The notes under the pieces are model-generated. The model did not search any database. It was not told where the DNA came from and saw only the letters and a program-made list of their open reading frames with translations. Both the position numbers and the translations under genes were made by a program. From Victivallis lenta (GTDB lineage: Bacteria; Verrucomicrobiota; Lentisphaeria; Victivallales; Victivallaceae), in the NCBI RefSeq assembly GCF_009695545.1, contig NZ_VUNS01000036.1, forward strand, positions 1-52,345: a stretch of 52,345 nucleotides of DNA, in the 5' to 3' direction. This document shows positions 23,726 through 47,590 of the stretch, piece by piece. Within the stretch, counting starts at the first letter, position 1. Every line of letters starts with the position of its first letter.

Positions 23726-24142
23726 TCATATTTCAAACTGAAATCCAGAAATCGCGGCAATATCCTCAAAACCGATGACCGTCCCGTCCTCCATGACCAG
23801 CGTCTTCTCCGGAACGGAAATATGCCGCACCCGCCCCGTGACGGTAACATACGCACCGCCAGATTTCCGGTCATCGGGAACGAAATATTCGATGGTCGCC
23901 TCCGGGCGATCCGGCAGATTGGCGATGAGCGCGGCAAGACGGCGGTTCAATTCTTCGGCCTCCTGCGCGTCCAGTTCGCGCCTTTCGGCGGTCAGCCGGG
24001 CGGTTTCCCCTACCGCCGCTTCGTAGCCCGTCAGCGCGGCAAACGGCGCGAACTGTGCGGCCCTGTCGAGCATCGGCATCTGCGGATGGTTCTGCGAGAC
24101 GTGGTGCGGCAAGTGGATGATGTCGGCATAAGGACTGTTCAT
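23726..24142 (-). CDS. YolD-like protein
   Basis: 138 residues. The N-terminus MNSPYADIIHLPHHVSQNHP then MLDRAAQFAPFAALTGYEAA is the YolD-like signature found in Firmicutes next to UmuC-type polymerases. The C-terminal half forms a small beta barrel (YFVPDDRKSGGAYVTVTGRV, VMEDGTVIGFEDIAAI). YolD proteins are predicted counterparts of UmuD, partnering Y-family polymerases in the DNA-damage response. The start overlaps the polymerase stop as ATGA, so synthesis is coupled. It is the last gene of the interrupted minus-strand operon. Confidence 0.9.
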   Translation of the reverse strand: MNSPYADIIHLPHHVSQNHPQMPMLDRAAQFAPFAALTGYEAAVGETARLTAERRELDAQEAEELNRRLAALIANLPDRPEATIEYFVPDDRKSGGAYVTVTGRVRHISVPEKTLVMEDGTVIGFEDIAAISGFQFEI

Positions 24143-25641
24143 TTCCGATGTCCTCCTATCTGTTCGTTCCGCACCTTGCCTGTCGCGCCTTTCTCCAGAT
24201 TCATGCCCTTGAGGATGGCATTCGCTCCCATACGTTTTTTGATGTTGAGAACTGCCTGCTGAAGACGCTTCTCCTTGTCCAGCTCCGCCTGTTCCGCCGC
24301 TTTCTTTTTTTTCAGCGCCTCGTAATCCGCGAAAAGATCGGGCTGCTCCTCCGGGGCAGCCGGGATGTCCTTCTCGTTAAGGACGTGCGCCGCCACAACG
24401 GTGATGCGCCGAACCAGCAGATTCGGATCGACGCGGCGGTCGAACAGTTTCATCATGGCATCCGTAATAATTCTGCCGGATGAGGTGAAGCGATCAAGGT
24501 TAACCGAGCCGTGTGCCTCCTTGGGAATCTCTCTGCCGTAATGGTCGATTCGAACCGGCCCGGCATATCTCATGCGGCGGTCCGAATCGGTCAGATTGGA
24601 GGCGTCATATCCCACGGTCAGGACCAGCTGATCGGTCACGAGATGTTTTTCCACGAGATCGAGCACCAGCTGGTCGGTCATCTCGCGAGCGACCAGTTTC
24701 CCTTTGTCAAATTCATACGGCTCCTGCAGAACCTGACCGGAACTGATGCTGTTGTTCTCCGGTTTGTATGCCTTGATCTCCGCGATAGTGACCGGCTCCC
24801 AGCCCCAGGCATGGTCGATCAGCAGTTCCGCATTGATGCCGAACATTCGGTAAAGCAAATCCTCATTTCGGACCGACATCCGGGCAACATCACCCATCGT
24901 GTACATCCCGGCGGCTTCCAGTTTGCTGGCATATCCTTTGCCGACTCTCCAAAAGTCTGTAAGCGGTCGGTGTGACCACATCTTTTCCCGGTAGGACTGC
25001 TCGTCCAGTTCGGCGATTCGGACGCCGTCCTTGTCTGCGGGAATGTGTTTCGCCACGATATCCATTGCGATTTTGGCGAGATACAGATTCGTGCCGATTC
25101 CCGCCGTGGCGGTGATTCCGGTATTGGCGAGCACCTCCCGGATCAGCTTCATCGTGAAATCATGGGCGGAGAGTTTGTAAAGTTTCAGATAAGAGGTCGC
25201 GTCGATGAACACCTCGTCGATGGAATAGACGTGGATGTCGTCCGGCGAGACGTATTTCAGGTAAATGCCGTAGATCTGCGAGCTGACCTCGATGTAACGG
25301 GCCATGCGCGGCACGGCGACGATGTAGTCCAGTTCCAGGGACGGGTTCGCCGCCAGTTCCGGGGCGCTCACGGACTTGCCGCTGAATCGGTGTCCCGGCG
25401 CGATGCGCTGCCGCTGGGCGTTGACCTGCCGGACCTTCTGCACCACTTCGAACAGGCGCGGCCGTCCGGGGATGCCGCAGGCTTTCAGCGCCGGGGAAAC
25501 CGCGAGACAGATCGTCTTGTCCGTCCGGGACTGGTCGGCAACCACAAGATTGGTCGTGAGCGGATCGAGCTTCCGGTCGGCACACTCCGCCGAGGCGTAA
25601 AAGGACTTCAGGTCAATGGCTATGTAGACGCGCGCTGTCAT
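24139..25641 (-). CDS. Y-family (UmuC/UvrX-like) translesion DNA polymerase
   Basis: 500 residues. IAIDLKSFYASAEC near residue 10 holds the first catalytic Asp and the FY steric-gate position. YSIDEVFIDATSYL near residue 110 holds the catalytic Asp-Glu pair. GIGTNLYLAKIAMDIVAKH is the fingers/palm helix and FWRVGKGYASKLEAAGMYTM a helix-hairpin-helix in the thumb. The long C-terminal region covers the little finger and a charged tail. It copies damaged DNA with low fidelity. The start at 25641 overlaps the DUF2293 stop as ATGA, and the end overlaps the YolD start. Because the upstream gene is cut by the tet(W) element, the polymerase has lost its native promoter connection. Confidence 0.92.
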   Translation of the reverse strand: MTARVYIAIDLKSFYASAECADRKLDPLTTNLVVADQSRTDKTICLAVSPALKACGIPGRPRLFEVVQKVRQVNAQRQRIAPGHRFSGKSVSAPELAANPSLELDYIVAVPRMARYIEVSSQIYGIYLKYVSPDDIHVYSIDEVFIDATSYLKLYKLSAHDFTMKLIREVLANTGITATAGIGTNLYLAKIAMDIVAKHIPADKDGVRIAELDEQSYREKMWSHRPLTDFWRVGKGYASKLEAAGMYTMGDVARMSVRNEDLLYRMFGINAELLIDHAWGWEPVTIAEIKAYKPENNSISSGQVLQEPYEFDKGKLVAREMTDQLVLDLVEKHLVTDQLVLTVGYDASNLTDSDRRMRYAGPVRIDHYGREIPKEAHGSVNLDRFTSSGRIITDAMMKLFDRRVDPNLLVRRITVVAAHVLNEKDIPAAPEEQPDLFADYEALKKKKAAEQAELDKEKRLQQAVLNIKKRMGANAILKGMNLEKGATGKVRNEQIGGHRK

Positions 25642-25862
25642 TGGTTTAGCACCTTGGCCAATGGGCACATAGTGAAATCAATATCTTCGCCGGAACGGTA
25701 TTTTTCAAGCAGAGACCTTGAGCGAACCGCCAATTTACGGCGCACCTCCCGCCGCTCGCCCTTGATTCTGGCAATGGACATATTGTCATACGCCGTTGTC
25801 TGATGACGCATCCATGCGATTACCGCAGCCTCCGCACGTTGTTGAGTGGGAATGACCGTCAA
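25638..25862 (-). pseudogene. DUF2293 gene, 3' fragment
   Basis: The frame encodes QRAEAAVIAWMRHQTTAYDN and KGERREVRRKLAVRSRSLLE, the conserved DUF2293 core. Upstream of about 25853 the sequence is that of the tet(W) element, and no ATG start is present (only TTG at 25862). The 5' part of the same gene lies at 34964-35512. Joining the two at the shared ATTCCCA-TC-ACAA core restores one protein of about 230 residues. It overlaps the polymerase start as ATGA. Confidence 0.85.
25839..25853. repeat. Left element/chromosome junction core
   Basis: TTGTTGAGTGGGAAT matches 35027-35041 (TTGTCGAATGGGAAT) at 13 of 15 positions. Both lie in the same codons of the split DUF2293 gene, so the crossover occurred within this segment. 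Confidence 0.75.
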
Positions 25863-25914
25863 AACGGCTCAAACCCGCATGAATACAGGGTTTTTGACCT
25901 GTCAATCTGCCTTG

Positions 25915-25932
25915 TGATACTGGATTGATACT
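25915..25932. repeat. Paired TGATACT sites, left end
   Basis: Two TGATACT heptamers whose starts are 11 bp apart. The right end has the same pair with the same spacing at 34911-34928. One helical turn of spacing near both ends suggests integrase arm-binding sites. Confidence 0.6.
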
Positions 25933-25978
25933 ATTCGTGTCAACCCGGTACACAAGAGAATGATTGCAAAGGGCAAGC

Positions 25979-26017
25979 AAGCCGCCCTGCTGAACGACAA
26001 ATTCAGCAGGGCGGCTT
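25979..26017. terminator. Strong hairpin after the XRE repressor gene
   Basis: A 16-bp perfect stem (AAGCCGCCCTGCTGAA and its complement) with a 7-nt loop, just beyond the repressor stop. It would insulate the element's left end from chromosomal transcription. Confidence 0.7.
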
Positions 26018-26025
26018 TGCTTGTC

Positions 26026-26583
26026 CTATTTTTCTTTTCTCCAAGGAACATAGTAGTCAAACCGTTTGCTGTCGTCACAGGTACACGGCCAGTTGATTTT
26101 CCATTCAAAGTATTCCTCCCTGGTAATTTCCCCGGCGTGAAGTTCCTGCTGACGCAAGAGCCATTCCCGCATGAACTCATCTACCAGCCCATAGTTGAAG
26201 TATATGCCCACGGGAGGTTGAGCGGGCCAGTCGTCCGTGTCATTGTAGCGGACGGCGGTATCATCGGAGGCCCCCGTCTTGCCGGGATTGCGGACAAGCT
26301 GAAACAAGCGGATGGAGCCGGGGCTGTCCTCGTCCAGCCAGAAGAATGTCCGCATGAAGTCCTCGGCGCAGCCAGGACGGAGCGTGTAGAAGTTCTGGAA
26401 GTCTACCCGAAGCGCCTGGGCAATCTTGTCCAGCAGTTCCCTTTTCGGAACACGGTAATTCGTTTCGTACTGGGCAATACGGTTGTCCGCTCCCTTTTCC
26501 TCAAAACCGACAGCCAGCCCCAATTCCTTTTGCGTCATGCCTCGAAAAGTTCGGATTTTCTTGATTTTTTCTCCTACTGTCAT
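26026..26583 (-). CDS. XRE family repressor of the mobile element
   Basis: 185 residues. The N-terminal helix-turn-helix MTVGEKIKKIRTFRGMTQKE, then LGLAVGF and RIAQYETNYRVPKRELLDKI, is a Cro/C1-type domain. The C-terminal ~120 residues are acidic with aromatic clusters, as in the regulators that sit at the left end of Firmicutes mobilizable elements. Start ATG 26583 with GGTGGA upstream; the longer reading adds an implausible hydrophobic leader that crosses the operator region. It is divergent from xis-int, and the three repeats at 26642-26725 between them are its likely operators. Confidence 0.85.
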   Translation of the reverse strand: MTVGEKIKKIRTFRGMTQKELGLAVGFEEKGADNRIAQYETNYRVPKRELLDKIAQALRVDFQNFYTLRPGCAEDFMRTFFWLDEDSPGSIRLFQLVRNPGKTGASDDTAVRYNDTDDWPAQPPVGIYFNYGLVDEFMREWLLRQQELHAGEITREEYFEWKINWPCTCDDSKRFDYYVPWRKEK

Positions 26584-26641
26584 ATGTTCCACCGCCTTTG
26601 AACATAGTATAGCGCAAATAAGCGAAATACGCAAGAGAAAA

Positions 26642-26725
26642 ATTAACAAAATTGCGAAATTTCCTCTTGACATTAACAACCATGCGAATGTATAATAAGG
26701 ACGTTGGCATTAACAATTTTGCGAA
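26642..26725. promoter_or_regulatory. Three operator-like repeats and the xis-int promoter
   Basis: ATTAACAA-nnn-TGCGAA occurs at 26642-26658, 26672-26688 and 26709-26725. Between them TTGACA (26667-26672) and TATAAT (26691-26696), separated by 18 bp, form a near-consensus promoter towards xis. The middle repeat covers its spacer, so binding would block transcription. Confidence 0.7.
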
Positions 26726-26747
26726 TAAGAAGCGAGGAGGTGAAAAC

Positions 26748-26936
26748 ATGAGCAAGGAACTGTTTGTACGGGCCGAGGAAGTGGCCGGGGTGCTGGGTAT
26801 CTCCAAACCCTACGCCTACAAGCTGGTGCGGGAGATGAACGAGGAACTGAAGCAGAAGGGTTTCCTCACCATCCCCGGACGGGTGAGCAGGAATTACTTT
26901 GAGGAAAAGTTCTATGGACTGCGGGAAAATCAGTAA
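26748..26936 (+). CDS. xis: Excisionase-type helix-turn-helix protein
   Basis: 62 residues: MSKELFVRAEEVAGVLGISK followed by PYAYKLVREMNEELK is a winged helix-turn-helix of the MerR/excisionase type. GFLTIPGRVSRNYFEEKFYG forms the wing and last helix. Such proteins bend DNA at attachment sites and steer the integrase towards excision. It has an excellent ribosome-binding site (GAGGAGGTG) and sits 12 bp before int. The start at 26748 is chosen over an upstream in-frame ATG that would include operator sequence. Confidence 0.85.
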   Translation: MSKELFVRAEEVAGVLGISKPYAYKLVREMNEELKQKGFLTIPGRVSRNYFEEKFYGLRENQ

Positions 26937-26948
26937 GGAGGGAACAAA

Positions 26949-28025
26949 ATGCCAGCATACAAAGACAAGGCCAAAGGCACATGGTATGCGTCCTTTTACT
27001 TTGAGAACTGGACAGGGAAAAAGGAAAAGAAGATGAAACGGGGTTTCAAGACCAAGCGGGAGGCGCTGGAGTGGGAACGGACGTTCCTGCAACAGCAGAC
27101 CGCTGACCTGGATATGACCTTTGAGAGTTTCGTGGCGCTCTACGCTACGGACATGAAAGGCCGTATCAAGGAGAACACCTGGGGGACGAAAGAGCATATC
27201 CTCTACAAGAAGCTGGTGCCATACTTCGGCAAGCGGAAAATGAGCGAGATTAGTTCTAAAGAGGTCATGGCGTGGCAAAGCGAAATGCTCAACTACCGGG
27301 ACAAGAACGGCAAGCCCTACTCCCCCGTTTACTTGAAAACGCTGCACAATCAGTTGAGCGCCGTTTTCAATCATGCGGTGAAGCACTACAAGCTGAAAGC
27401 CAACCCCGCCGCCCAGGTGGGCAACATGGGCAAGGCCAAGGGCCGGGAAATGCTGTTCTGGACGAAAGCGGAGTATCTGAAATTTGCTGACGCTATGATG
27501 GACAAGCCCCTCTCCTACTATACCTTTGAAATGCTCTACTGGTGCGGTATCCGGGAGGGGGAATTGCTGGCCCTCACCCCTGGGGACTTCGACTTTGAGA
27601 AGCAGACGGTTTCCATCTCAAAATCCTATCAGCGTATCAAGGGCCAGGATGTAGTCACCGACCCCAAGACCGCCAAGAGCAACAGGGTCATTCAAATGCC
27701 CGCTTTCCTCTGTGAAGAAATGGAGGACTACATCAAGAGCCTGTATGCCGCAAAGCCGACAGACCGCATTTTCCCCGTGACGAAATCCTACCTTCACCGG
27801 GAGATGGACAGGGGAGCGAAAGAGGCGGGGGTCAAGCGGATCAGGATTCACGACCTCCGACACAGCCACATTTCCCTGCTGATTGACATGGGCTTCACCG
27901 CCCTGGCAATCGCTGACCGGGTGGGACATGAAAGTATCGACATCACCTACCGCTACGCTCACCTGTTTCCCACCCGGCAGGCGGAGATGGCGAACAAACT
28001 GGACATGGAGCGAAAGGGGGCTTAA
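26949..28025 (+). CDS. int: Tyrosine integrase of the tet(W) element
   Basis: 358 residues. N-terminal AP2-like arm-binding segment (KGTWYASFYFENWTGKKEKK), core-binding domain (residues ~55-150), then the catalytic domain: Arg in YWCGIREGELLAL, His-x-x-Arg in IHDLRHSHISLL, His in RVGHESIDITY and Tyr in RYAHLFPTRQ. It integrates and excises the element at the 15-bp core in the DUF2293 gene, using the TGATACT pairs as probable arm sites. Follows xis after 12 bp with AAGGAGGG upstream. Confidence 0.93.
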   Translation: MPAYKDKAKGTWYASFYFENWTGKKEKKMKRGFKTKREALEWERTFLQQQTADLDMTFESFVALYATDMKGRIKENTWGTKEHILYKKLVPYFGKRKMSEISSKEVMAWQSEMLNYRDKNGKPYSPVYLKTLHNQLSAVFNHAVKHYKLKANPAAQVGNMGKAKGREMLFWTKAEYLKFADAMMDKPLSYYTFEMLYWCGIREGELLALTPGDFDFEKQTVSISKSYQRIKGQDVVTDPKTAKSNRVIQMPAFLCEEMEDYIKSLYAAKPTDRIFPVTKSYLHREMDRGAKEAGVKRIRIHDLRHSHISLLIDMGFTALAIADRVGHESIDITYRYAHLFPTRQAEMANKLDMERKGA

Positions 28026-28028
28026 ATC

Positions 28029-28349
28029 ATGTCTGCAAAGAACCTTGACAACCACAACCGATGGAGAAGCAAAACCATAGCGTTCCGGGTGTCCCCGGAG
28101 GAAAACGAACAGATTGAGATTGCCGTCCGCCTCTCCGGGCTGACCAAGCAGGACTACATCACCCGGCGGCTCTTAGACCGGGCCGTGGTGGTGCAGGGCA
28201 ATCCCAGGGTCTACAAGGCCCTGCGTGACCAACTCGCCGCCGTCCTGGGGGAACTGCGGCGCATTGAGGCCGGGGGCGGCGTGGGGGATGAACTTCTCGC
28301 CACCATTGACCTTATCTCGATGACGCTGGGCGGCATGAAGGAGGATTGA
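28029..28349 (+). CDS. MobC-like mobilization accessory protein
   Basis: 106 residues. IAFRVSPEENEQIEIAVRLS with LTKQDYITRRLL matches the ribbon-helix-helix start of MobC/relaxosome proteins that help the relaxase open DNA at oriT. The rest is helical (LRDQLAAVLGELRRIEAGGG). It lies 3 bp after int and 7 bp before the ATPase gene, within one operon. Its role in mobilisation is inferred from family and from the relaxase gene downstream. Confidence 0.75.
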   Translation: MSAKNLDNHNRWRSKTIAFRVSPEENEQIEIAVRLSGLTKQDYITRRLLDRAVVVQGNPRVYKALRDQLAAVLGELRRIEAGGGVGDELLATIDLISMTLGGMKED

Positions 28350-28356
28350 TAGATTG

Positions 28357-29511
28357 ATGGATTCCAGAGAAACGAAAAGGACTGTCCCGGTTCCGTCTGT
28401 TGGCGCAGACGGGGAACAGCCCATTTCACAAACAACTATCAAAAGTATAGCAGAGGAAACGGCTGAAAACAACCCCCAAGAGGAAAGTTTGGAAGAAATG
28501 CTCCGAGATATGCGGCGCATGAGCGACTCGGCTTACCTCCACACGGTTTCTATGAACGACCTTTACCAGAACATCTACCAGAGCAGACCGCCCGTCATTG
28601 ACGGTCTGCTCTACCCTGGGACATACCTCTTTGCGGGAGCGCCCAAGGTGGGCAAGTCGTTCCTGATGGCCCAGCTTGCCTACCATGTCAGCACCGGCCT
28701 CCCGCTGTGGGACTATCCCGTTCACAAGGGGACTGTCCTCTATCTGGCGCTGGAGGACGATCACCGCCGCTTGCAGGGGCGGCTATACCGAATGTTCGGC
28801 ACAGAGGGCACCAACGACCTGCTCTTTGCGGTCTACGCCAAGCAGCTCGGCGTTGGCCTGGAGGAACAGCTAAAGAAGTTCGTCCGGGAACACCCGGACA
28901 CCAAGCTGATTATCATTGACACCCTCCAGAAAATCCGAGAGGCTGGCGGGGATAAGTACAGCTACGCCAACGATTACGAGGTGGTGGGGAAACTGAAACG
29001 ATTTGCCGATGATTGCGGCGTCTGCCTCCTGCTGGTACATCACACCCGGAAACAACAGGCCGATGATAAGTTCGATATGATCTCCGGCACCAACGGACTG
29101 GCGGGAGCAGCGGACGGAGCCTTTCTTCTTCAAAAGGAGAAGCGGACGGACGGCAACGCCGTTCTGGACGTGGCCGGGCGTGACCAGCAAGACCAGCGAT
29201 TCTATCTTACCAAGGACAAGGAACGGCTGATATGGACGCTGGAGCGTACGGAAACGGAGGCATGGACAGAGCCGCCCGACCCGGTGCTGGAGGCCGTAGC
29301 CGCCCTTGTAACAGCGGAAAGCCCCTCTTGGGCAGGGACGGCCACAGAACTGGCGGCGGCGCTCCAGACTGACATGAAGCCCAATGCCCTGGCAATGCGG
29401 CTGAATGTCCGGGCCGGGAAGCTGCTGACAGACTACCACATCCGCTATGAGAACAGCAGGAGCCACGCCGGGAGAAGTATCAGCCTGACGCTGGAACCGC
29501 CCCAGGCGTGA
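28357..29511 (+). CDS. RepA-like AAA ATPase
   Basis: 384 residues of the RecA-fold group that includes the plasmid helicase RepA. LFAGAPKVGKSFLMAQLAYH is the Walker A P-loop (about residue 95), VLYLALEDDHRRLQGRLYRM the family's A'-type Glu-Asp segment, LIIIDTLQKIR the Walker B, and LLLVHHTRKQ the following motif. The last ~80 residues look like a winged helix. It probably drives replication or unwinding of the excised or transferring DNA. The ATG at 28357 is preferred, with GGAGG in the preceding gene's last codons. Confidence 0.85.
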   Translation: MDSRETKRTVPVPSVGADGEQPISQTTIKSIAEETAENNPQEESLEEMLRDMRRMSDSAYLHTVSMNDLYQNIYQSRPPVIDGLLYPGTYLFAGAPKVGKSFLMAQLAYHVSTGLPLWDYPVHKGTVLYLALEDDHRRLQGRLYRMFGTEGTNDLLFAVYAKQLGVGLEEQLKKFVREHPDTKLIIIDTLQKIREAGGDKYSYANDYEVVGKLKRFADDCGVCLLLVHHTRKQQADDKFDMISGTNGLAGAADGAFLLQKEKRTDGNAVLDVAGRDQQDQRFYLTKDKERLIWTLERTETEAWTEPPDPVLEAVAALVTAESPSWAGTATELAAALQTDMKPNALAMRLNVRAGKLLTDYHIRYENSRSHAGRSISLTLEPPQA

Positions 29512-30021
29512 CGACCGTGACGGCTTTTTTGAGGGCGGGGGCGGTGTCTGAAACATCGTCACAGTCGTCACGGCTGTCACAGGGAGCGGCCCCAGACGTT
29601 TCCCACCCCCACCGCAACCCAGCGAAGCGGTTGCGGTGGGGAGAGGAGGGGCAAGGGAGCGGAGTGAGGGATGGACACAAGGCCGTCCCGAATGGAGCGG
29701 ACTTTGACCCGACGAGGTGCAGGGTGCCCTTTTCTGCGAAGTATACCCTGCGGGTAAAAGGGCGGCCCTGCTGGGGGAGGCAACCGCACACCGAGCCGCA
29801 GCGAGGCGTTTCGGAGGCCAACCGCCGCTTGCGGCGGCTCTTAGGCCGGAGATGTTGCCGGGGACAAAGCCCCCACACCCCCTCGGAGAGCCCACGACAC
29901 TTTGCAGCCCGAAGGGATGAAAGTGTCATAGTGGGTTATTACACTTCCCGCAGGAAGTGCCTCCCCTGAACTTCCGTCCTCGATCAACAACCCAACATCT
30001 GAAACAGGAGGATTTTTGCCT
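29512..30021. other. Non-coding GC-rich segment with hairpins and oriT
   Basis: 510 bp without a supportable gene. Repeats of GTCACG/GTCACAG cluster at 29515-29580. A 13-bp perfect stem occupies 29607-29641 (CCCCACCGCAACC and complement), usable as a terminator of the int-repA transcript. The right part holds the oriT candidate. Confidence 0.55.
29896..29957 (+). other. Candidate oriT of MobV type
   Basis: GACACTTT (29896-29903) and AAAGTGTC (29920-29927) form an inverted repeat. Directly after it TAGTGGGTTATTACACTT (29929-29946) resembles the nick-region pattern TAGTGTGTTATACTTT of pMV158-type MobV origins, and ACTTCC-cgca-GGAAGT follows as a small hairpin. It lies immediately upstream of the MobV relaxase gene, the usual location. 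Confidence 0.6.
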
Positions 30022-31365: not shown

Positions 31366-31387
31366 TCAAAAAAATGGAGGTAACATT

Positions 31388-31502
31388 ATGGAAAAGTACA
31401 TCTTCGACGAGAGCAACGGCCTGTGGTATGAGTTGCAGAGGAACTAACAATATCCGGGCGTGTGCGGCGGAAATCGTGGACACAGAAATTATTTGCGCAT
31501 GA
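31388..31502 (+). pseudogene. tnpV remnant with internal deletion
   Basis: Starts MEKYIFDESNGLWYELQ, the N-terminus of the TnpV protein common in Firmicutes transposons, with GGAGG upstream. It stops after 19 residues. In a shifted frame the following bases encode NIRACAAEIVDTEIICA, the usual TnpV C-terminus. The central ~85 codons have therefore been deleted. Confidence 0.7.
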
Positions 31503-31570
31503 GGCCCCAAATCGAAGGGTGTCCCGGTGAATGCCCTCCTGATTTATTTGGGACAGCGGGTAAAAACTTC

Positions 31571-31599
31571 TTGCATTTTAGAGTGTACTATGCTATATT
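31571..31599 (+). promoter_or_regulatory. Promoter for tet(W)
   Basis: TTGCAT (31571-31576), a 17-bp spacer and TATATT (31594-31599), about 280 bp before the tet(W) start and directly upstream of the leader region. Confidence 0.6.
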
Positions 31600-31631
31600 G
31601 CTGTCATCCTGATTTGAGGAGTCTATTCAAC

Positions 31632-31843: not shown

Positions 31844-31875
31844 GCCCTTTGGGGCTGTAAAGGGAGGACAATCAC

Positions 31876-33795: not shown

Positions 33796-33845
33796 AGATA
33801 CATAATCGTCAAGACGGCAACAATCAGAAGTTATGGAGGGTAACA

Positions 33846-34613: not shown

Positions 34614-34653
34614 ATTCAAGTTTGTCGGATAAATAGCAAACCCAGCCGAGCCA

Positions 34654-41200: not shown

Positions 41201-41297
41201 AGTCCCGAACCACATCCGGCCCGTAAACATGGGTATATCCGAGCTGTTCAATCAGCTGGATCACCGCATTTTCATAATTTGCTTCTGTATATGCCAT
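38277..41297 (-). CDS. hsdR: Type I restriction endonuclease subunit R
   Basis: 1006 residues, the normal HsdR length. The nuclease domain has D133 in RPDVVIFVNG and E147-x-K149 in VVIELKS, a PD-(D/E)xK site. The superfamily 2 translocase follows: FWHTQGSGKSLSMVFYAHLL (Walker A), VVMADEAHRGQYG (DEAH box), FIGFTGTPI (motif III) and ANO-like later motifs AIARVNRVF (motif VI). The C-terminal helical region binds the methyltransferase. It translocates DNA from an unmethylated site and cuts at a distance. Intact. It follows the DUF3644 gene by 3 bp. Confidence 0.95.
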   Translation of the reverse strand: MAYTEANYENAVIQLIEQLGYTHVYGPDVVRDYTDPLYSDVLEGALIAVNPGIPQAAINEALFKLRNIENGKLEQRNIIFTDYLQNGIEVAYFHNGEQKYERVHLIDYAHIDRNSFIVANQWTFQEHSEKRPDVVIFVNGLPLVVIELKSPSREETDASEAYRQLRNYMLEIPSFFVYNAFCVMSDMAETRVGTITSGEDRFMQWKTVDGETESTAFADFNVLFEGMLEKQRFFDILRNFICFSRDNGNDAKILAGYHQFYAVRKAVVSTVNATQTDGRGGVFWHTQGSGKSLSMVFYAHLLQQELNSPTIVVLTDRNDLDDQLYGQFSKCQEFLRQIPQQASSRENLKELLANREANGIIFTTMQKFEESDSALSQRRNIVVMADEAHRGQYGFEKINEDGKIHIGTARIIRDSLPNATFIGFTGTPISQKDRNTREVFGDYIDIYDMTQAVEDGATRPVFYESRVIHLNLDEKILKKIDSEYELLAQNAEEHAIEKSKKELGQMESILGAPQTIEALCNDIVDHYENYRAQELTGKAMIVAYSRPIAMDIYRKLLEMRPAWNEKIAVVMTSGNDDPEEWRSIIGNKSRKDELARKFKDNDDPLKIAIVVDMWLTGFDVPSLATMYVYKPMSGHNLMQAIARVNRVFKNKEGGLVVDYVGIASALKQAMNDYSKRDQSNYGDTDIGKAVLPKFQEKLEVCRDLFHGFDYANFMDGTDLQRSQLIIGGVNFLSDPKEPKKKELFIKEGLLLRQALSLCRSIVPQNERYEAAFFEAVRTMLTRITGNPKHFSLKEINERINELLKQSIKSDGVINLFADVKEGFSLFDPKFLEEISKMKEKNVAIEILKKLIAEQVSVYRRTNVVKSELFSEKLQRAMNAYLNGMLTNEEVIEELKKMAAEIAAAAASSNQLGLSVEEIAFYDALTKPQAVKDFYDNDQLVAITKELTEMLRSNRTVDWQKKETARAKMRSMVKRLLKKYKYPPEGQEEALETVISQCEMWTDNSLL

Positions 41298-41300: not shown

Positions 41301-42305
41301 TTATGCTCTTTTCTTTAATGAAACTGGACCCTCATACAACGATTTATTTTTTTGACAATGGTCCAAAACAAAATCCAACCACGATTGATACCAGCGCCAA
41401 TCTTTTCCCGCAATCATTACGCCAAATCCTTTTGCAGTATTTTTAGCATCTTCTTGCTTGACTAACATGGTATGTTCATGCATCCTAAATTTTCCATAAC
41501 CTTTAGACTGCACATAACTTACTATCTGACCAGGTAAAAATTTAGGGCGTTCTGTTTCTTTTATGACAGCGTAGTGAGCATTTACTTTTTCTGCCAATTC
41601 AGAATCAGCTTTCACAAATTCAATTACTTGGTCAGCTTGTCCTTTTCTGTTTGCCGTTTTGGGAACAAAAAGAATGCGATAAGCATATTTGGGAGATCCA
41701 TATTCTACATCAGACAGTAATTTATCAAAATTAAGAATATATGACTTTATATTTCCTGGCAAATCTTTTTTGTCAGACAGCATTTCTTTTTGTTCATCAG
41801 AAATAGATGAAAATTGCAAACTAAATGATAGATGACGCTGCATTGTGCTGTCATTAAATAATTTTCTTAAATATTCATCATAGTTCAAACAACAGGCTTG
41901 AAATTTAGCGGAGAGAATATCATCTATACGCGTTGTCATTTGGTGTTCTATTTCGTGTCTTATGCCAATGAGAAAACGTAAATTATTGGATGTATCTTTA
42001 TCTAATGGCGAGGATTCATCGTTTAAACATCTTTCGAGTTCCCAGAATTTATATGCACCATTTTTTGTTCGATCAAATTTTCTTTTTCCATTGGCTTGAG
42101 TTTGAAAATAGCGATATTCAATGCCTGTGCTTCTATAAAATGCATGTAACAAATATGTCCAGGCTATTATCATAAGGACAATATAGGTTTCAGCTTTAAA
42201 AGAAATATTAGGGTTATTAAATATTTGAACGGCAGAAAGTGCAGCTTCTTTTGATTTTTGCAATAATTCTTGCTTTACTGAACCAACTCTACGAATTCTT
42301 CCCAT
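41301..42305 (-). CDS. DUF3644 protein
   Basis: 334 residues. LLQKSKEAALSAVQIFNNPN, with FKAETYIVLMIIAWTYLLHA and FYRSTGIEYRY, is the DUF3644 signature; LIGIRHEIEHQ resembles the helical histidine motif seen in HEPN-like domains. Members are common in restriction-modification loci and defence islands; their function is unproven and an RNase (HEPN-type) role is an inference from RHEIEH. Its AT-rich codon use differs from hsdR and hsdM. It lies between hsdS and hsdR, a frequent place for accessory defence genes. Confidence 0.82.
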   Translation of the reverse strand: MGRIRRVGSVKQELLQKSKEAALSAVQIFNNPNISFKAETYIVLMIIAWTYLLHAFYRSTGIEYRYFQTQANGKRKFDRTKNGAYKFWELERCLNDESSPLDKDTSNNLRFLIGIRHEIEHQMTTRIDDILSAKFQACCLNYDEYLRKLFNDSTMQRHLSFSLQFSSISDEQKEMLSDKKDLPGNIKSYILNFDKLLSDVEYGSPKYAYRILFVPKTANRKGQADQVIEFVKADSELAEKVNAHYAVIKETERPKFLPGQIVSYVQSKGYGKFRMHEHTMLVKQEDAKNTAKGFGVMIAGKDWRWYQSWLDFVLDHCQKNKSLYEGPVSLKKRA

Positions 42306-42314
42306 AATTTTCTG

Positions 42315-42355
42315 CTCCGCTAAATTGCTATTTAGATTTCCACTTCCGACACGTC
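42315..42355. repeat. 41-bp direct repeat, copy 1 (3' end of intact hsdS)
   Basis: Perfectly identical to 44571-44611. It contains TAAATTGCTATTTA and the last codons and stop of hsdS. Recombination between copies would delete the recombinase gene and one hsdS (2,256 bp). Confidence 0.9.
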
Positions 42356-43525
42356 GATTTCCCCGGACATCAGCTTGGGCAGCAGGGCGTCCCGCAGCCG
42401 AGTCAGTCTTTGGTTTTCTGATTCAAGTAATTCTTGCTGGTCAAATAAAGGCTGTGTAATCGTTGAAAAATTCATCAAGGCTTCTTTCGCAGGGATAACA
42501 GCTGGAATAGCTTTCATTACACTGCCAGACACTTCTTTAAATGTTGAACCAGATGCCATTGATTCAATCTTAGGCAAATTGTGCTTCAGAAAACAATAAA
42601 CAAATGCAGTTCCGATATGTAAATGCGGTACAACAGATTTGAACCCTTGATTTGTGGTGATTTCATTTTTTGCAATAGCAATATAACCGATAGGAGCTCT
42701 CGAACTAAACAATACTGTTCCGCGTGGCATAATGACAGCACTGCTATTTCGCAATCCTGCTGGCGTTATATCTGACTCTCCCTTCGATATGAACTTTGAT
42801 TTGTTTCCCGACAAATCTTTAGGCGTTATCCATGCAATTCCATTTGATGTATAGTATTCAGGCTTCGCTTTGGATGGGGTACTTCCGCCAACAACATTTC
42901 CCAGATCCGCAATAGTACCTTGTTTCCAATTTGCACAATGCTGCGAATTTATGAAAAAATCTTCAAAGAGCACTCGTATTTGTTCTTCCAAATTATGGTT
43001 TATCTGAGTGTTCCATCGTATCTTTGAATCAAGAGAAGATAAAATATCGACAGTCAAATCCTGTTGTGAACGCGGGGGAAGCGGAATCTCCATATTTGCG
43101 TATGTTTGAGCATTTATATTTCCGCGTGTACTTCCAGTGTTAAAAGATGCGATCCAACCACGATACGCTTCTGAAATGGCATAATATTTTATAAACAAGG
43201 GATTCACTTTCTGGTGATCAAGAGAAAATTTAATCAAAAATCCTGCGTAAACAAGTTCACCATCCCGAGAGTCGTAAAAATAACTTCTTCCCGTACTGTT
43301 GCCAGTTCTTGCAAAAACAATGTCATTCTCTTTCAGAATATAATTTTTTGCTTTGGGATCGTTCACAGATTTCTTATCGGCAAGATTCAATGTTCCATCA
43401 TCATTTATATCCGTTATACGCAGATAAGTGTAAAGATCCTCTGAAAATGGAACCGCAGAAGCAGGGATACCATAATTACCTTTTCCAATGCAAATATCTG
43501 ATAATTTTACTTTTGTTATATTCAT
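42332..43525 (-). CDS. hsdS: Type I specificity subunit S, intact copy
   Basis: 397 residues with the two-fold design of HsdS. Target recognition domain 1 is at about 1-150, the central conserved helix follows (QQDLTVDILSSLDSKIRWN; TQINHNLEEQIRVLFEDFF), domain 2 at about 200-350, then the C-terminal conserved helix (LESENQRLTRLRDALLPKLM) ending GEIDVSEVEI. The two domains set the bipartite DNA target of the methylase and nuclease. The start overlaps the recombinase stop as ATGA, so its translation follows the recombinase. Recognition domains differ from those of the split copy upstream. Confidence 0.93.
   Translation of the reverse strand: MNITKVKLSDICIGKGNYGIPASAVPFSEDLYTYLRITDINDDGTLNLADKKSVNDPKAKNYILKENDIVFARTGNSTGRSYFYDSRDGELVYAGFLIKFSLDHQKVNPLFIKYYAISEAYRGWIASFNTGSTRGNINAQTYANMEIPLPPRSQQDLTVDILSSLDSKIRWNTQINHNLEEQIRVLFEDFFINSQHCANWKQGTIADLGNVVGGSTPSKAKPEYYTSNGIAWITPKDLSGNKSKFISKGESDITPAGLRNSSAVIMPRGTVLFSSRAPIGYIAIAKNEITTNQGFKSVVPHLHIGTAFVYCFLKHNLPKIESMASGSTFKEVSGSVMKAIPAVIPAKEALMNFSTITQPLFDQQELLESENQRLTRLRDALLPKLMSGEIDVSEVEI
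42981..43008. repeat. Central hsdS repeat, copy in intact hsdS
   Basis: TGTTCTTCCAAATTATGGTT, continuing TTATCTGAG, encodes the conserved INHNLEEQ helix. The split hsdS has two related copies at 45201-45221 and 45290-45312. It is a candidate exchange point between hsdS genes. Confidence 0.7.
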
Positions 43526-44514
43526 CCCACATACCTCCGGTGAGCAATTTTTACGTTACTTTGATTGACCAGAGCATAGCACATGGTCGTATCAATCTTT
43601 TTATGCCCAAGCAGACGCTGGACTTGTTCAATTGGCATACCTTTATCAATCGCACGTGTTGCCAGTGTTCGCCGGAACCGGTGCGGATGTACATTTTCAA
43701 TAGCAGCGATTCTCCCCAGCTTCCGGAGTAGAAATTCAACCCCGCCGATTTCCAGCCGTTTGTGCGGGGATCTCAGCGAAACAAAAAGAGCCGGGTTATC
43801 GTCTGTTCTGCTGTTCAAATATTGCCACAGATGAATCTTTGTCCGGGCATCGAAATAAACTTCCCGTTCGCTGCTGCCTTTCCCGAAAACGATGCAGGAT
43901 CGCTCGTTGAAGTTTATATCCGTTCGGTTCAGTTTGACCAGTTCTCCAACACGCATCCCGGAGGAAGCCAGCAGTTCCACCATTGCCAAGTTGCGAATTT
44001 CAGAACAAGTATCACGCAAAACTTCAATGGTTTCGTCGGTAAACGCTTCTTTAATGATCTTTGCGGTCTTGATCCGATGGATACGCCGCACCGGACTTTT
44101 AACGATATAATCTTCATCCTCAAGCCAGGCAAAAAAGCTGGAGAGAATCCGGCGTATATTGTCAATAGTAACCTTGCTGACATTCCGTTCCTGTTGGTAT
44201 TCTGCCAGATACAGGCGAAGATCGTCGGTATCAATCAGCGTTATTTCTTTTTTGATCCAGGCAAAGAAGCGACCTATTGTTTCCTGATAATAAATGACCG
44301 TTTTCCCGGAACAGCCTTCTATTTGCTTTGCCGAAATAAACATGGTCAACAGGCGATTATTCGCTTCTTGTGTATTATCAACAGGCGAGACCGGTTCGGA
44401 GATCTGGTATTTTTGCAGACAGCTCCGCATAGCGGTCACCAGCTGTTCTTTCTGGCGATCGCTCAATTTTCCGTTCATAGCCTGTTGAATTTCCTTCATC
44501 AATTTTTCTTTCAT
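43522..44514 (-). CDS. Tyrosine recombinase within the hsd locus
   Basis: 330 residues, XerC/D-like. The core-binding domain spans about 45-150 (FFAWIKKEITLIDTDDLRLY). The catalytic residues are Arg in SSGMRVGELVKL, His-x-x-Arg in VHPHRFRRTLATRA, His in LLGHKKIDTTM and Tyr in MCYALVNQSN. Recombinases in this position invert or exchange hsdS segments in many gut bacteria, changing restriction specificity. Here both hsdS genes face the same way, so exchange or deletion between direct repeats is the visible possibility. TCAGGAGAAAC precedes the ATG. Stop overlaps the next hsdS. Confidence 0.9.
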   Translation of the reverse strand: MKEKLMKEIQQAMNGKLSDRQKEQLVTAMRSCLQKYQISEPVSPVDNTQEANNRLLTMFISAKQIEGCSGKTVIYYQETIGRFFAWIKKEITLIDTDDLRLYLAEYQQERNVSKVTIDNIRRILSSFFAWLEDEDYIVKSPVRRIHRIKTAKIIKEAFTDETIEVLRDTCSEIRNLAMVELLASSGMRVGELVKLNRTDINFNERSCIVFGKGSSEREVYFDARTKIHLWQYLNSRTDDNPALFVSLRSPHKRLEIGGVEFLLRKLGRIAAIENVHPHRFRRTLATRAIDKGMPIEQVQRLLGHKKIDTTMCYALVNQSNVKIAHRRYVG

Positions 44515-44570: not shown

Positions 44571-44611
44571 CTCCGCTAAATTGCTATTTAGATTTCCACT
44601 TCCGACACGTC
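44571..44611. repeat. 41-bp direct repeat, copy 2 (3' end of split hsdS)
   Basis: Identical to 42315-42355. It lies just upstream of the recombinase gene, whose start is at 44514. Confidence 0.9.
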
Positions 44612-45277
44612 AATTTCTCCGGCCATCAGCTTCGGAAGCAGTGCGTCACGAAGCTGTGCCAGTCTTTGGGATTCCATTTTGTTTGTTTCAATAGTTTCCC
44701 AGAAAAAAGATGTCAAACGGTCAAATTCTTTTAACACATTTTCTGCGGGAAGTACGATTTTTATTGCATTAAGTATATCTGTTGTCATGCTTGGAACCGC
44801 AGAACCACTATTCATAGATGCTAAATCTAAGGCCGATAAAATATGGTATGTATATTTAGCTGCTCCTGCTTTTTTCGGCACAGAATAAAACATCGTATCA
44901 ACGGTCCAAAAATCGCCAATTACCCGCATAACATTATTCAAAGTACCTTTCCGAGGGATCAAAACTGATTCCCCTGAAAATAAAGCTTTTTCGGCATAGC
45001 GCATAAGTCCTCCCGATCCATAAACAGGAATTGCTCCATCCGCCAATTTCTTATGATCCTTTCCATACCGTATTTCAAGCATGTCTTTTAATGTGCCTAC
45101 ATTCCATCCTGCTGGGATCTGTCCAAGTTCAGAGTCGACAAACGCTCCATTCTGGAACGGATCAAAATCTACAAACCAAGATTTGAAGATTGCCTTTGCC
45201 TGTTCTTCCAAATTATGGTTTCCATAAGCAGGAAACAGGCACAAAGCCATAAAAATTGTCACGATAACAATTTTCAT
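44588..45277 (-). CDS. hsdS: HsdS C-terminal half-subunit with new N-terminus
   Basis: 229 residues. Residues 1-19 (MKIVIVTIFMALCLFPAYG) are encoded by the inserted 83-bp unit and look like a hydrophobic leader. HsdS sequence starts at NHNLEEQAKAIFKSWFVDFD and continues with target recognition domain 2 (QIPAGWNVGTLKDMLEIRYG) and the C-terminal helix ending AGEIDVSEVEI. GGAGGGG lies 8 nt before the ATG, which overlaps the upstream stop as ATGA. The half carries one recognition domain and one conserved helix, the minimum that in other type I systems can pair as two halves. The hydrophobic leader might hinder this. Confidence 0.8.
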   Translation of the reverse strand: MKIVIVTIFMALCLFPAYGNHNLEEQAKAIFKSWFVDFDPFQNGAFVDSELGQIPAGWNVGTLKDMLEIRYGKDHKKLADGAIPVYGSGGLMRYAEKALFSGESVLIPRKGTLNNVMRVIGDFWTVDTMFYSVPKKAGAAKYTYHILSALDLASMNSGSAVPSMTTDILNAIKIVLPAENVLKEFDRLTSFFWETIETNKMESQRLAQLRDALLPKLMAGEIDVSEVEI

Positions 45278-45304
45278 GCAGCGATCCCCTCCAAATTATG
45301 GTTT
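45207..45304. repeat. 83-bp insertion with duplicated 15-bp hsdS sequence
   Basis: TCCAAATTATGGTTT occurs at 45207-45221 and 45290-45304, 83 bp apart. The unit is not a multiple of three. Between the copies lies AAAATTGT-tatcgtg-ACAATTTT (minus-strand reading), an 8-bp perfect stem. Removing one unit restores a single continuous HsdS frame (INHNLEEQAK). Confidence 0.9.
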
Positions 45305-45813
45305 ATCTGAGCGTTCAGCTCAATTTTGTCGTCAAAGGCTGTCAAAATTGAAGCAACTTTTTGTTGTGTCTTCAGGTCTGGTAAAATTACTGAGATGGAT
45401 TCAAATGTGTCCCGCGTAATGGTATCAAAAACAGAGCCGTGAGTATTCTTTTTTATCGTTTCGATGGAATGACGCAGCAAATAAAAAAGATAGTCATTAC
45501 AGGTTATTCCAGGCTTTGCTCTTAAACCATAGCAAGATTGATTAAAAGCCATTTCCTTTGCAACCTGGGCCAATACCCCAACTGTTCCCCGCGCAGAAAT
45601 GATGATTTCTCCTGGATACAATATTCGAGTGGAACTATTGTTTAGTCCAGCCTCTGTAATTGTTTTTTCGGTTGTAAATACATGTCTAAAATCGTTATTA
45701 AAGTCGACAACAGAAAGCCAGGGAATATCGCCACCCCAATAATCTGAACGAGAGGTTTTCGGAGTTCCACCACCTATAATATCTGCCAATTCAGACAATT
45801 TATATTCTTTCAT
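45274..45813 (-). CDS. hsdS: HsdS N-terminal half-subunit (split)
   Basis: 179 residues from the ATG at 45813, which lies 1 nt past the hsdM stop; the longer reading from 45834 would lie inside hsdM. Target recognition domain 1 includes YKLSELADIIGGGTPKTSRS and GDIPWLSVVDF. The conserved helix LKTQQKVASILTAFDDKIEL then AQINHNLE is followed by GIAA and a stop created by the 83-bp insertion. It would normally continue into the 44588-45277 frame as a ~385-residue HsdS. Confidence 0.85.
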   Translation of the reverse strand: MKEYKLSELADIIGGGTPKTSRSDYWGGDIPWLSVVDFNNDFRHVFTTEKTITEAGLNNSSTRILYPGEIIISARGTVGVLAQVAKEMAFNQSCYGLRAKPGITCNDYLFYLLRHSIETIKKNTHGSVFDTITRDTFESISVILPDLKTQQKVASILTAFDDKIELNAQINHNLEGIAA

Positions 45814-45814
45814 A

Positions 45815-47317
45815 TCATTCCACCTCGAATCCAATGGCTTTCAGATTCTTTTTGATCTCGCTTTCCAGATCGTGGGATTTTGCGAACAGTGCTGAAAGTT
45901 CGGTGGTCAGGCGTTCCATTTTTTCATCGAAAGGCTCGCCGTCATCTTCCTGTTCTTCAATGCCAACGTATCTGCCCGGAGTCAGAATATAATCCTGTTC
46001 GGCAATCTGGGCTGTGGTGGCAACAGCACAGAAGCCTTTGACATCTTCCAGCGTCCCGTTTTCGTAGGCATCAAAAGTTTTTGCAAGTTCCTGAATGTCT
46101 GCATCGGTCAGCATACGCAGTTTCCGGGAAACCATCGTTCCCATTTTGCGGGCATCAATAAAGCAGGTTTTCCCCTTTTGCTTTTTATTGCGGCTCAAGA
46201 ACCACAGCGAAACCGGGATCTGTGTCGTATAAAAAAGCTGTGTCGGCATTGCAACGATACAAGATACGAGATCATCTTCAATGATATTTTTGCGGATTTC
46301 GCCTTCGCCGCCGGATTGGGACGAAAGAGAACCATTCGCCAACACCATGCCAATTTTGCCGTTGGGAGCCAGGTGGTGGATCATGTGCTGAAGCCAGGCA
46401 AAGTTCGCATTGCCTGACGGCGGCACACCATATTTCCAACGAACATCATCTTTCAGGCGATCCGCCCCCCAATCGGAAAGGTTGAAGGGAGGATTTGCCA
46501 TCACAAAGTCAGCTTTTAAAGTCGGATGACAGTCGTTGAAAAAGGTATCCGCGTTATAATTTCCCAGATTTGCTTCAATGCCCCGGATCGCCAGATTCAT
46601 CTGTGCCATCTTCCAGGTGGTCGGATTGGAGTCCTGACCGTAAACCGAAATATTGTTGATATTGCCCTGGTGGTTTTCCACAAACTTTGCCGACTGCACA
46701 AACATGCCACCGGACCCGCAGGCAGGGTCGTAAACCCGGCCGTTGTAAGGCTTCAGGAATTCAACCAACGTTTTAACCACACAGGCTGGTGTGAAAAATT
46801 CTCCGCCTTTCTTGCCTTCCTGTTCGGCAAACATAGCAAGGCAGTATTCGTAAGTGCGGCCCAGAATGTCGCGGGTGTCGCCATGATCTTTCATCTTGAT
46901 ATTGGTGAAAAGGTCCACCACATCACCCAGACGGCGTTTGTCCAGTTCCGGGCGGGCAAAGTTCTTCGGCAAGATGCCTTTCAGTCGGACGTTTTCTTTT
47001 TCAATCAGAATCATCGCATCGTCAATGGTTCTGCCGATTTCAGGCGTATGAGCCGCGTCTGCAATCTTTGCCCAACGTGCTTCCGCCGGAACGAAGAACA
47101 CATTGCAGGAGGTGTATTCGTCCCGATCTTCCGCAAAGTCCGGATCTTCCGCCATAAGTTCATTATAGCGGGCCTCAAATTTGTCCGAGATATATTTCAG
47201 AAAGATAAGCCCAAGAACCACCTGCTTATATTCCGCAGCATCCATATTTCCGCGCAAAATACAAGCGGCATCCCAGATCTCTTTCTCAAAACCAATATTC
47301 GCAGTGTTTTCTGTCAT
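45815..47317 (-). CDS. hsdM: Type I DNA methyltransferase subunit M
   Basis: 500 residues. The N-terminal helical domain (FEKEIWDAACILRGNMDAAE; VVLGLIFLKYISDKFE) is typical HsdM. GRVYDPACGSGGMFVQSAKF is the SAM-binding motif I and KADFVMANPPFNLSDWG the catalytic NPPF motif IV of N6-adenine methylases. The C-terminal helix ends IKKNLKAIGFEVE. With HsdS it methylates the target site and protects host DNA; with HsdR it forms the nuclease complex. AAGGAGATAAAAC precedes the ATG. Intact and of family length. Confidence 0.95.
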   Translation of the reverse strand: MTENTANIGFEKEIWDAACILRGNMDAAEYKQVVLGLIFLKYISDKFEARYNELMAEDPDFAEDRDEYTSCNVFFVPAEARWAKIADAAHTPEIGRTIDDAMILIEKENVRLKGILPKNFARPELDKRRLGDVVDLFTNIKMKDHGDTRDILGRTYEYCLAMFAEQEGKKGGEFFTPACVVKTLVEFLKPYNGRVYDPACGSGGMFVQSAKFVENHQGNINNISVYGQDSNPTTWKMAQMNLAIRGIEANLGNYNADTFFNDCHPTLKADFVMANPPFNLSDWGADRLKDDVRWKYGVPPSGNANFAWLQHMIHHLAPNGKIGMVLANGSLSSQSGGEGEIRKNIIEDDLVSCIVAMPTQLFYTTQIPVSLWFLSRNKKQKGKTCFIDARKMGTMVSRKLRMLTDADIQELAKTFDAYENGTLEDVKGFCAVATTAQIAEQDYILTPGRYVGIEEQEDDGEPFDEKMERLTTELSALFAKSHDLESEIKKNLKAIGFEVE

Positions 47318-47389
47318 GTTTTATCTCCTTGAGTGTGGTTATATATCCGTAATATATCATCGGAACCTGGACATCTAACGTCCACTCTA

Positions 47390-47590
47390 TTACGCTTTGT
47401 TAATTTTTTTTCTACTTTTTTCAGGACCGCCTTTTGCCAGCCAGCCCTCGATCTGGTCTTTTTTAAACTTCCAACATTTACCCATCTTCATTGACGGCAT
47501 ATTATAGTTGGCGATCCAGCGGGAAATCGTGTCATGGCTGACGCCCAGGTAAGCACAAATTTCCTTCATTGAAAGCCAGCGATCGTCCAT
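47390..47590 (-). CDS. Small helix-turn-helix (excisionase-like) protein upstream of hsdM
   Basis: 66 residues. WLSMKEICAYLGVSHDTISR then WIANYNMPSMKMGKCWKFKK is the MerR/excisionase-type winged helix. The basic tail (PEKSRKKINKA) should contact DNA. Such genes lead many type I restriction loci and probably control them; an excision role with the downstream recombinase is an alternative. It ends 73 bp before hsdM on the same strand and has its own promoter at 47635-47663. Confidence 0.82.
   Translation of the reverse strand: MDDRWLSMKEICAYLGVSHDTISRWIANYNMPSMKMGKCWKFKKDQIEGWLAKGGPEKSRKKINKA

Follow-up and report, generated by a model that had tools for sequence, protein, structure and literature searches.

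SXT/R391 elements carry variable DNA at hotspots (HS1-HS5) that have near-identical edges, one of them right after a stop codon, and restriction and repair genes are over-represented in this DNA (PMC2791158). ISCR2 elements, a kind that often brings resistance genes with it, interrupt the rumB gene in several members (PMC2791158). Another related system is the putative mutasome of Gram-positive bacteria, in which YolD is viewed as an analogue of UmuD and its N-terminal arm as the shared polymerase-binding part, as far as the available text describes it (PMC6511836, PMC12926913). Here a stretch of 52,345 nucleotides from Victivallis lenta (contig NZ_VUNS01000036.1 of assembly GCF_009695545.1; its whole length is called the window) was analyzed. 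It contains a train of minus-strand genes that runs from a type I restriction-modification system to a UvrX-type Y-family polymerase and a YolD-like gene. The link between restriction and the polymerase is real yet modular: in a group of gut bacteria, various phage-defence systems occupy one swappable slot upstream of the polymerase and its partner, and there is no single fixed new cassette. On balance we favor the view that the train is one filling of a horizontally mobile defence slot of Lentisphaeria, exchangeable gene by gene, that ends in a UvrX-YolD-type mutasome.

Homologues were searched in 198 genomes, and G000 denotes the window's own genome. Both edges of the slot are found on one contig in three loci (the window, G000:C11, and G102:C1, the last from another family of the order), and a restriction system lies between them in all three. 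The left edge consists of small genes, encoding a 118-aa protein, a DUF3846 protein, two gamma-glutamylcyclotransferase-like proteins (GGCT1 and GGCT2), and a 69-aa protein (p69), and HEC-07 is often the next gene. In G000:C11, the left-edge genes are followed by a homologue of HTH66 (the helix-turn-helix (HTH) protein that opens the train of the window), EcoRII methylase, EcoRII, Vsr, a Ymh/PD-Lambda-3_B protein, two small genes, a homologue of the HTH protein HTH226, a polymerase 94% identical to that of the window, and YolD, and this train is uninterrupted. In G102:C1, an N4/N6 methylase comes after the left edge and HEC-07; next are a BglI-type endonuclease on the opposite strand (E=4e-115), a NUDIX gene, Ymh, a homologue of the metallophosphoesterase of the window, and other genes, and the series closes with what is left of the polymerase 3' end and with YolD. 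One contig of G031 has the left edge, an HTH66 homologue, BrxF, and BrxC, and a second has BrxHI, PglZ, BrxA, small genes, and the polymerase; these two BREX contigs are inferred to join. A third contig of G031 carries AIPR, a cytosine methylase, Vsr, small genes, and a protein of the p383 type before it ends. In G006, p62, the polymerase, and YolD are consecutive, and an hsdS gene lies on the other strand. L134 (CALVMH010000075.1), a short contig of a 'Clostridia' metagenome-assembled genome, is 92-98% identical to C11 and lacks the Ymh gene. It appears to offer a view of the gain or loss of a single gene, and it would be either misbinned or recently transferred. The restriction-to-polymerase link proposed in an earlier note on this DNA thus recurs with EcoRII plus Vsr, with a BglI-type system, and with BREX, although it concerns only a minority of the polymerases.

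The edges of the variable DNA are precise. In BLASTN comparisons, homology to C11 ends at C11 positions 2185-2187, beside the p69 stop codon, in five of the seven cases; the exceptions are L234 and L202, in which it ends at 2056 (133 bp inside p69). It ends no more than about 7 bp from the HEC-07 stop codon in 5/5 comparisons. On the other side, homology to C11 sets in at -5 to +17 bp relative to the start of the polymerase gene in seven of the eight comparisons with the 5' end present, and at +30 in L105. In four trains the gene upstream of the polymerase is a different one each time, and each overlaps or abuts the polymerase start (spacings of -4, -4, -4, and 0). The left-edge DNA of the window (49978-50582) is 87% identical to C11 and 87% identical to G102:C1, and its HEC-07 gene is 91% identical at the nucleotide level to that of G102:C104. 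The HEC-07 protein matches its profile over the full length, as a candidate defence protein of this family should, and the C11 copy of GGCT2 matches PF06094. Two families of the order share edge DNA at 83-92% identity, which points to its recent transfer. Conserved flanks with variable content in the window, C11, and G102:C1, together with the precise edges, mark the slot as a predicted defence hotspot.

The gene content behind the left edge is also that of a hotspot. A left-edge locus was counted if it had a match to C11-type GGCT1, GGCT2, or p69, or a HEC-07 at >=58% identity, and if >=2 kb of sequence lay beyond its last edge gene. Restriction or BREX genes are found in 8 of the 13 loci so defined (G000:C36, G000:C11, G102:C1, G102:C104, G097:C248, G031:C68, G180:C469, and G116:C99). 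Type I methylases give 355 matches in the 198 genomes, or about 0.5% per 10 kb if a genome is taken to be 3.7 Mb, and one is listed in 4 of the 13 loci (P=4e-7 against the expected ~0.5%); because loci of the same genome are non-independent, window lengths differ, and the genome size is assumed, this P value is only a guide. By these counts defence genes appear enriched behind the edge. Loci with less than 2 kb behind the edge (G102:C99, G120:C318, G120:C128, G006:C192, G116:C152, G031:C312, and G164:C193) were not counted. Nor were loci with the 118-aa protein alone (including G104:C6 and G123:C227), distant relatives that have amidotransferase-type clusters or match weakly (L144, L246, L248-L252, and L254-L259), and HEC-07 homologues at 30-36% identity without other edge genes (L197, L198, L200, and L201). 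G123:C227 has a 43-residue fragment with 3.8 kb behind it, in which no restriction gene was seen; if it is counted, the fraction becomes 8/14. The polymerase is commoner in genomes with the 118-aa protein (E<=2e-20) than in the others (6/11 vs 26/187, Fisher P=0.003, with a cut chosen by us and kinship uncorrected).

The neighbors of distant left-edge relatives include genes for amidoligase and glutamine amidotransferase, a large serine recombinase, and open reading frames (ORFs) that are tail-fibre-like by eye. A prophage-like origin is therefore possible; this phage-like context is seen in the distant relatives only, and the element ends were not found. In L249-L251, L258, and L259, genes for an amidoligase (by Pfam in L249), a glutamine amidotransferase-like protein, a GGCT, and the 118-aa protein form a small cluster. 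In L249-L251 this cluster is followed by an ORF resembling a large serine recombinase, and in L249 and L250 tail-fibre-like ORFs, judged by eye, lie upstream of it. The L249-type cluster is possibly a prophage modification cassette.

As the earlier note had stated, the train genes run from 47590 to 23726, all on the minus strand and in the order shown in Table 1 (ORF calls and Pfam). Pfam supports HsdM, both HsdS, the tyrosine recombinase, DUF3644, HsdR, the metallophosphoesterase, an HTH_3 protein, and the Y-family polymerase; the DUF2293 match is weak (16.7 bits vs a cut-off of 25). The 14 spacings in train order are 72, -20, -4, 73, -4, 26, 3, 11, 0, 1, -4, -4, -4, and -4. The frequent 4-bp overlaps that had been described are present at 6 of the 14 junctions. 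Of the spacings, 12/14 lie between -20 and +26, and those of HTH-hsdM (72 bp) and hsdS1b-recombinase (73 bp) fall far outside the stated range of 0-27 bp. The start of HTH226 had been placed at 37337, and alignment with relatives moves it to 37301. A promoter-like site ahead of the first gene (47663-47635) has 10/12 matches to the consensus; it is one of three equally good sites on the minus strand, the other two being inside train genes. The best-scoring terminator-like hairpin (47747-47721) is upstream of it. Across the region promoter-like sites are somewhat above chance (30 vs 21, standard deviation 4.3) and terminator-like sites are at chance (16 vs 15.4 expected); both counts are of consensus matches, and neither is evidence of a single transcript.

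Table 1. Features of the window, listed in the direction of the train (aa, residues; E, expectation value)
Feature	Coordinates	Strand	Basis or remark
GGCT2, gamma-glutamylcyclotransferase-like, 122 aa, conserved left edge	50191..50559	-	93% aa to C11 copy
p69, 69 aa, last conserved left-edge gene before HEC-07	49978..50187	-	77% aa to C11 copy
HEC-07, 554 aa, candidate defence protein, left edge of variable slot	48235..49899	-	PADLOC E=1.8e-96, residues 16-554
Promoter-like site ahead of first train gene	47635..47663	-	consensus match only
HTH66, HTH_17 protein, 66 aa, first train gene	47390..47590	-	homologue identity: EcoRII train 50%, BREX locus 48%
hsdM, type I methyltransferase	45815..47317	-	PF02384 E=5.7e-110
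hsdS1a, first half of split specificity gene	45274..45834	-	PF01420 E=1.5e-32
hsdS1b, second half of split specificity gene	44588..45277	-	PF01420 E=9.5e-12; 4-bp overlap with hsdS1a
Tyrosine recombinase, between both specificity genes	43522..44514	-	PF00589 E=3.7e-30
hsdS2, intact specificity gene	42332..43525	-	direct repeats in common with hsdS1
DUF3644 protein, PADLOC candidate PDC-S19	41301..42305	-	PF12358 E=5.3e-56; PDC-S19 E=5.4e-160
hsdR, type I restriction subunit	38277..41297	-	PF04313, PF18766, PF11867
Metallophosphoesterase	37492..38265	-	PF00149 E=4.6e-11
p62, small protein	37303..37491	-	G006 homologue overlaps polymerase start directly
HTH226, N-terminal domain (1-145) and Xre-type HTH	36657..37301	-	PF01381, alignments, fold match residues 150-214
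p383, mosaic protein	35509..36660	-	C-terminal half matches G031 protein
DUF2293 gene, 5' part	34992..35512	-	65% to residues 7-156 of intact 223-aa homologue
Mobilizable tet(W) element, inserted in DUF2293 gene	25870..34991 (ends approximate)	.	integrase, MobV-type relaxase, AAA protein, tet(W)
DUF2293 gene, 3' part	25638..25865	-	76% to residues 154-223 of same 223-aa homologue
UvrX-type Y-family polymerase, 500 aa	24139..25641	-	PF00817 E=1.9e-24, PF11799, Pol IV structures matched
YolD-like partner	23726..24142	-	PF08863 E=0.0022, below cut-off; 4-bp overlap with polymerase

The tet(W) element is not located between DUF2293 and the polymerase: it splits the DUF2293 gene, the two parts of which match one intact homologue. 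The 3' part lies just upstream of the polymerase, with its stop codon overlapping the ATG of the latter. Before the insertion, the train was presumably continuous. About 9 kb of foreign DNA now separates the polymerase from the rest of the train, and since the element lies inside DUF2293, the polymerase and YolD are cut off from the train in this strain. Three quarters of the element align at 88% with a plasmid of Subdoligranulum, and its tet(W) part aligns at ~98% with plasmids of Cutibacterium. The methyltransferase that follows tet(W) has a copy in G000:C30 (L233 19230-19898), as seen by eye. A 14-bp hairpin, also seen by eye, is present at 25979-26013, between the minus-strand gene of the element and the polymerase side, and the terminator scan did not call it on the minus strand.

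Together, hsdM, hsdS, and hsdR make up the gene set of a predicted type I restriction-modification system. In phase-variable type I systems a recombinase lies between hsdS genes, and the window has the same hsdS-recombinase-hsdS layout. This layout, which had been noticed before, stands, but the first hsdS is not a single gene; it exists as two overlapping ORFs. Unlike in phase-variable systems, where the repeats are inverted, the repeats of hsdS1 and hsdS2 that flank the recombinase (42315-45316) are direct (104 bp at 88% and 27 bp at 96%), and therefore simple inversion is unsupported. The sole inverted pairs are 16-18 nt long, and an invertible (phase-variable) hsdS locus was rejected.

The genes between the restriction system and the polymerase bear on a further proposal of the earlier note, that the seven genes from the metallophosphoesterase through p62, HTH226, p383, DUF2293, and the polymerase to YolD form a fixed, undescribed defence or damage-tolerance cassette. 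In the window these genes are adjacent and tightly spaced, and at three loci (the window, L108, and L134) a 383-type protein comes after HTH226. No second locus with the seven-gene set was found, and the genes are exchanged singly, with different partners. A homologue 84% identical to the metallophosphoesterase belongs to another filling, the BglI train of G102; p62 comes immediately before the polymerase in G006, as does an HTH226 homologue in G000:C11. DUF2293 homologues are scattered: they occur in 58/198 genomes (own genome included), and in the 13 genomes that have both DUF2293 and the polymerase, the two share one operon only in the window. They are on different contigs in 11 genomes and 1.4 kb apart on opposite strands in G139. 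The refuting condition set in the earlier note, scattered homologues, thus applies to DUF2293, and a neighborhood of polymerase and defence genes is conserved in a minority only. The fixed cassette is largely refuted by these data and is scarcely tenable.

The p383 protein is itself a mosaic. Its C-terminal half is 97% identical at the nucleotide level to part of a G031 protein that has a different N-terminal domain. In a predicted fold search, the C-terminal HTH of HTH226 is closest to the structures of HigA2, MqsA, and Aca/Aca2, which suggests that HTH226 may be an autoregulator; the fold matches cover the HTH half only. The predicted fold of p383 (mean predicted local distance difference test score 45.8) was not used. 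No homologue of p383 was found in plasmids and phages at E<=1e-5, and a single pattern match in viral contigs was not confirmed. p62 was not found in plasmids; two phage records have it, and the surrounding stretch of neither contains a polymerase homologue. For the N-terminal domain of HTH226, no match in viral contigs was confirmed. This domain, the p383 family, p62, p129, and Ymh/PD-Lambda-3_B are candidates by position.

With PF00817 and PF11799 above the cut-off, the polymerase has the Y-family domains expected of a putative UvrX/YolD-type mutasome, for which a RecA-NT-like motif and a conserved C-terminal tail are further features (PMC6511836). Its YolD partner, which adjoins it with a 4-bp overlap, matches PF08863 weakly (18.5 bits vs a cut-off of 27.5), and a YolD homologue is found downstream of the polymerase in many related loci. 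In YolD of G000:C11 (L076 9935-10366), ~40 N-terminal codons are kept at the DNA level and the remainder differs, as in a C-terminal swap. This conservation would fit the expectation that the N-terminal arm binds the polymerase. In a polymerase tree of 58 rows (the short L106 was left out), the four train polymerases fall in three places and imply three state changes. Branches with good support require these changes, and a single change is found in none of the bootstrap trees. The joining of polymerase and train therefore arose more than once or was lost repeatedly. Several side observations concern these polymerases. UvrX-type polymerases are labelled 'DNA methylase' in many plasmid records (L171-L175), yet the window homologue matches IMS domains; such mislabelling could create false restriction-modification calls. 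The polymerase gene of G031:C4 (L105 3740-6772) is broken, with a foreign ORF between its two parts, and three tandem ORFs, two of which match tyrosine recombinase, directly precede its 5' part. These tandem ORFs are presumably RIT-like. In G139:C32 (L096 9218-15244), the polymerase is closely preceded by a glutathione peroxidase-type gene and closely followed by NYN-domain and GmrSD-type genes.

Broken genes raise the question of whether the train is a decaying remnant or an assembly artefact, that is, non-functional genes brought together by repeats. DUF2293 is split by tet(W), hsdS1 is split, a transposase gene is found at the contig end of the window, and the polymerases of G031:C4 and G102:C1 are broken. 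Against this stand the uninterrupted second train in the same genome (C11) and the ratios of nonsynonymous to synonymous substitution rates (dN/dS). The ratio is 0.15 for the polymerase (between the window and C11), 0.13 for HTH226, 0.10 for the N-terminal part of p383, and 0.09 for the phosphoesterase (the last two with high dS). Most genes tested, HEC-07 among them, are thus under purifying selection, and decay or artefact is very unlikely.

The favored reading, an exchangeable slot, can be pictured as a frame. On its left are GGCT1-GGCT2-p69 and often HEC-07, and on its right, where present, the Y-family polymerase and YolD. One complete DNA-targeting defence system (type I in the window) lies between the edges, followed by small modular proteins. 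A single promoter before the 66-aa HTH gene may drive one transcript, in which case the loaded restriction system would be made together with a polymerase-YolD-RecA mutasome. The restriction enzyme would cut invading DNA and at times the host's own, and the mutasome and neighboring repair genes (Vsr, HhH-GPD glycosylase, and NUDIX in other fillings) would allow replication past the damage. The presence of the latter genes downstream in other fillings may fit a role in damage tolerance. In its strongest form this would be a restrict-and-repair operon: any DNA-cutting defence that bacteria of this class possess (type I, EcoRII, BglI-type, or BREX) would be wired by translational coupling, through small exchangeable proteins that adapt or regulate, to a translesion mutasome, and damage that is self-inflicted or brought by infection would be bypassed during immunity. 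We put this form forward tentatively and regard it as rather unlikely.

A strong rival is that the slot is a hotspot without joint function. The site would be a tolerated insertion point in a mobile or prophage-like element, the polymerase-YolD pair an old accessory, and the restriction genes passengers that land for their own benefit; the overlaps would be those of any compact operon. This is quite possible. Most of the polymerase-YolD pairs seen stand alone, clearly so in the g41 group and others, and same-direction upstream restriction or BREX genes accompany only 3 of the 36 polymerase matches, which come from 32/198 genomes (the window, C11, and G031:C192; neighbors were assessed visually and with BLAST against train proteins, and short contigs are frequent). 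In G097 and G180 a type I system follows the left edge, and no such polymerase is present at E<=1e-100. The filling of G000:C30 is a radical SAM protein with no defence match, distant left-edge relatives adjoin the serine recombinase and tail-fibre-like ORFs mentioned above, and SXT/R391 elements have the same precise edges with mixed content (PMC2791158). Two observations oppose it. In several fillings repair genes (Vsr, HhH-GPD, NUDIX, and the polymerase) have their place downstream of the restriction or BREX genes, and no gap separates the polymerase start from its upstream neighbor, for which four different genes are found.

Further points weigh against the slot reading. Restriction genes were not seen in G000:C30, G102:C5, G102:C33, G026:C1, and G123:C142, where the family libraries covered some genes only. 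Because of contig breaks, the parts in G031 and G006 are not linked. Of 500 label shuffles on the tree, 40 gave as few changes as observed. The dN/dS values of YolD (0.29) and HEC-07 (0.22) indicate weaker constraint, and those of p62 and DUF2293 are saturated and give no value. No SOS-like box common to 48 polymerases was found within 300 bp upstream with the few patterns used. In five opened Firmicutes plasmid loci out of 412 matched records, no restriction-modification was annotated in the 8 kb upstream. Among 20 viral-contig polymerase loci (BLAST against train proteins, and by eye), two GmrSD-type genes are directly upstream in L150 only; methylase-like genes some kb downstream of the polymerase in a few of these loci were not counted.

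Should the proposed working of the operon prove right, mutagenic repair would be inherited with restriction as one package, and the cost of restriction and immunity-linked mutation would become directly testable. Even without joint function, the conserved edges are a handle for mining defence systems in the little-studied Lentisphaeria. In full-text literature, with most subscription papers outside its scope, no paper was seen to describe an operon that joins restriction, polymerase, and YolD, or the slot itself.

The rumB gene of SXT/R391 is a umuC-type gene. As in the slot, variable DNA in these elements lies between conserved genes, and rumB, on the same element, is itself interrupted by the resistance-associated ISCR2 elements (PMC2791158). 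The SXT/R391 hotspots lie between genes, and the site of insertion in rumB is apart from them (PMC2791158). The variable block of the window runs directly into the polymerase start codon as one gene train. The window also belongs to another phylum, has other backbone genes, and carries UvrX/YolD instead of UmuC/UmuD. In P2/P4 prophage hotspots, as in the slot, defence genes of high turnover are located between two conserved mobile-element genes (PMC9122126). These hotspots are ~1-5 kb, and the available text mentions no translesion polymerase at their edge (PMC9122126), while the variable filling of the window is ~13 kb without the tet(W) element. The order of the last two genes, a Y-family polymerase directly followed by a YolD-like gene, is that of the putative UvrX/YqjW-YolD mutasome of Gram-positive bacteria (PMC6511836, PMC12926913). 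Unlike that system, the pair described here is found in Lentisphaeria and ends restriction trains, a context that does not appear in the available text of these papers (PMC6511836, PMC12926913). What distinguishes the slot from known hotspots is that its variable block, a tightly spaced train, ends at the start codon of a translesion polymerase.

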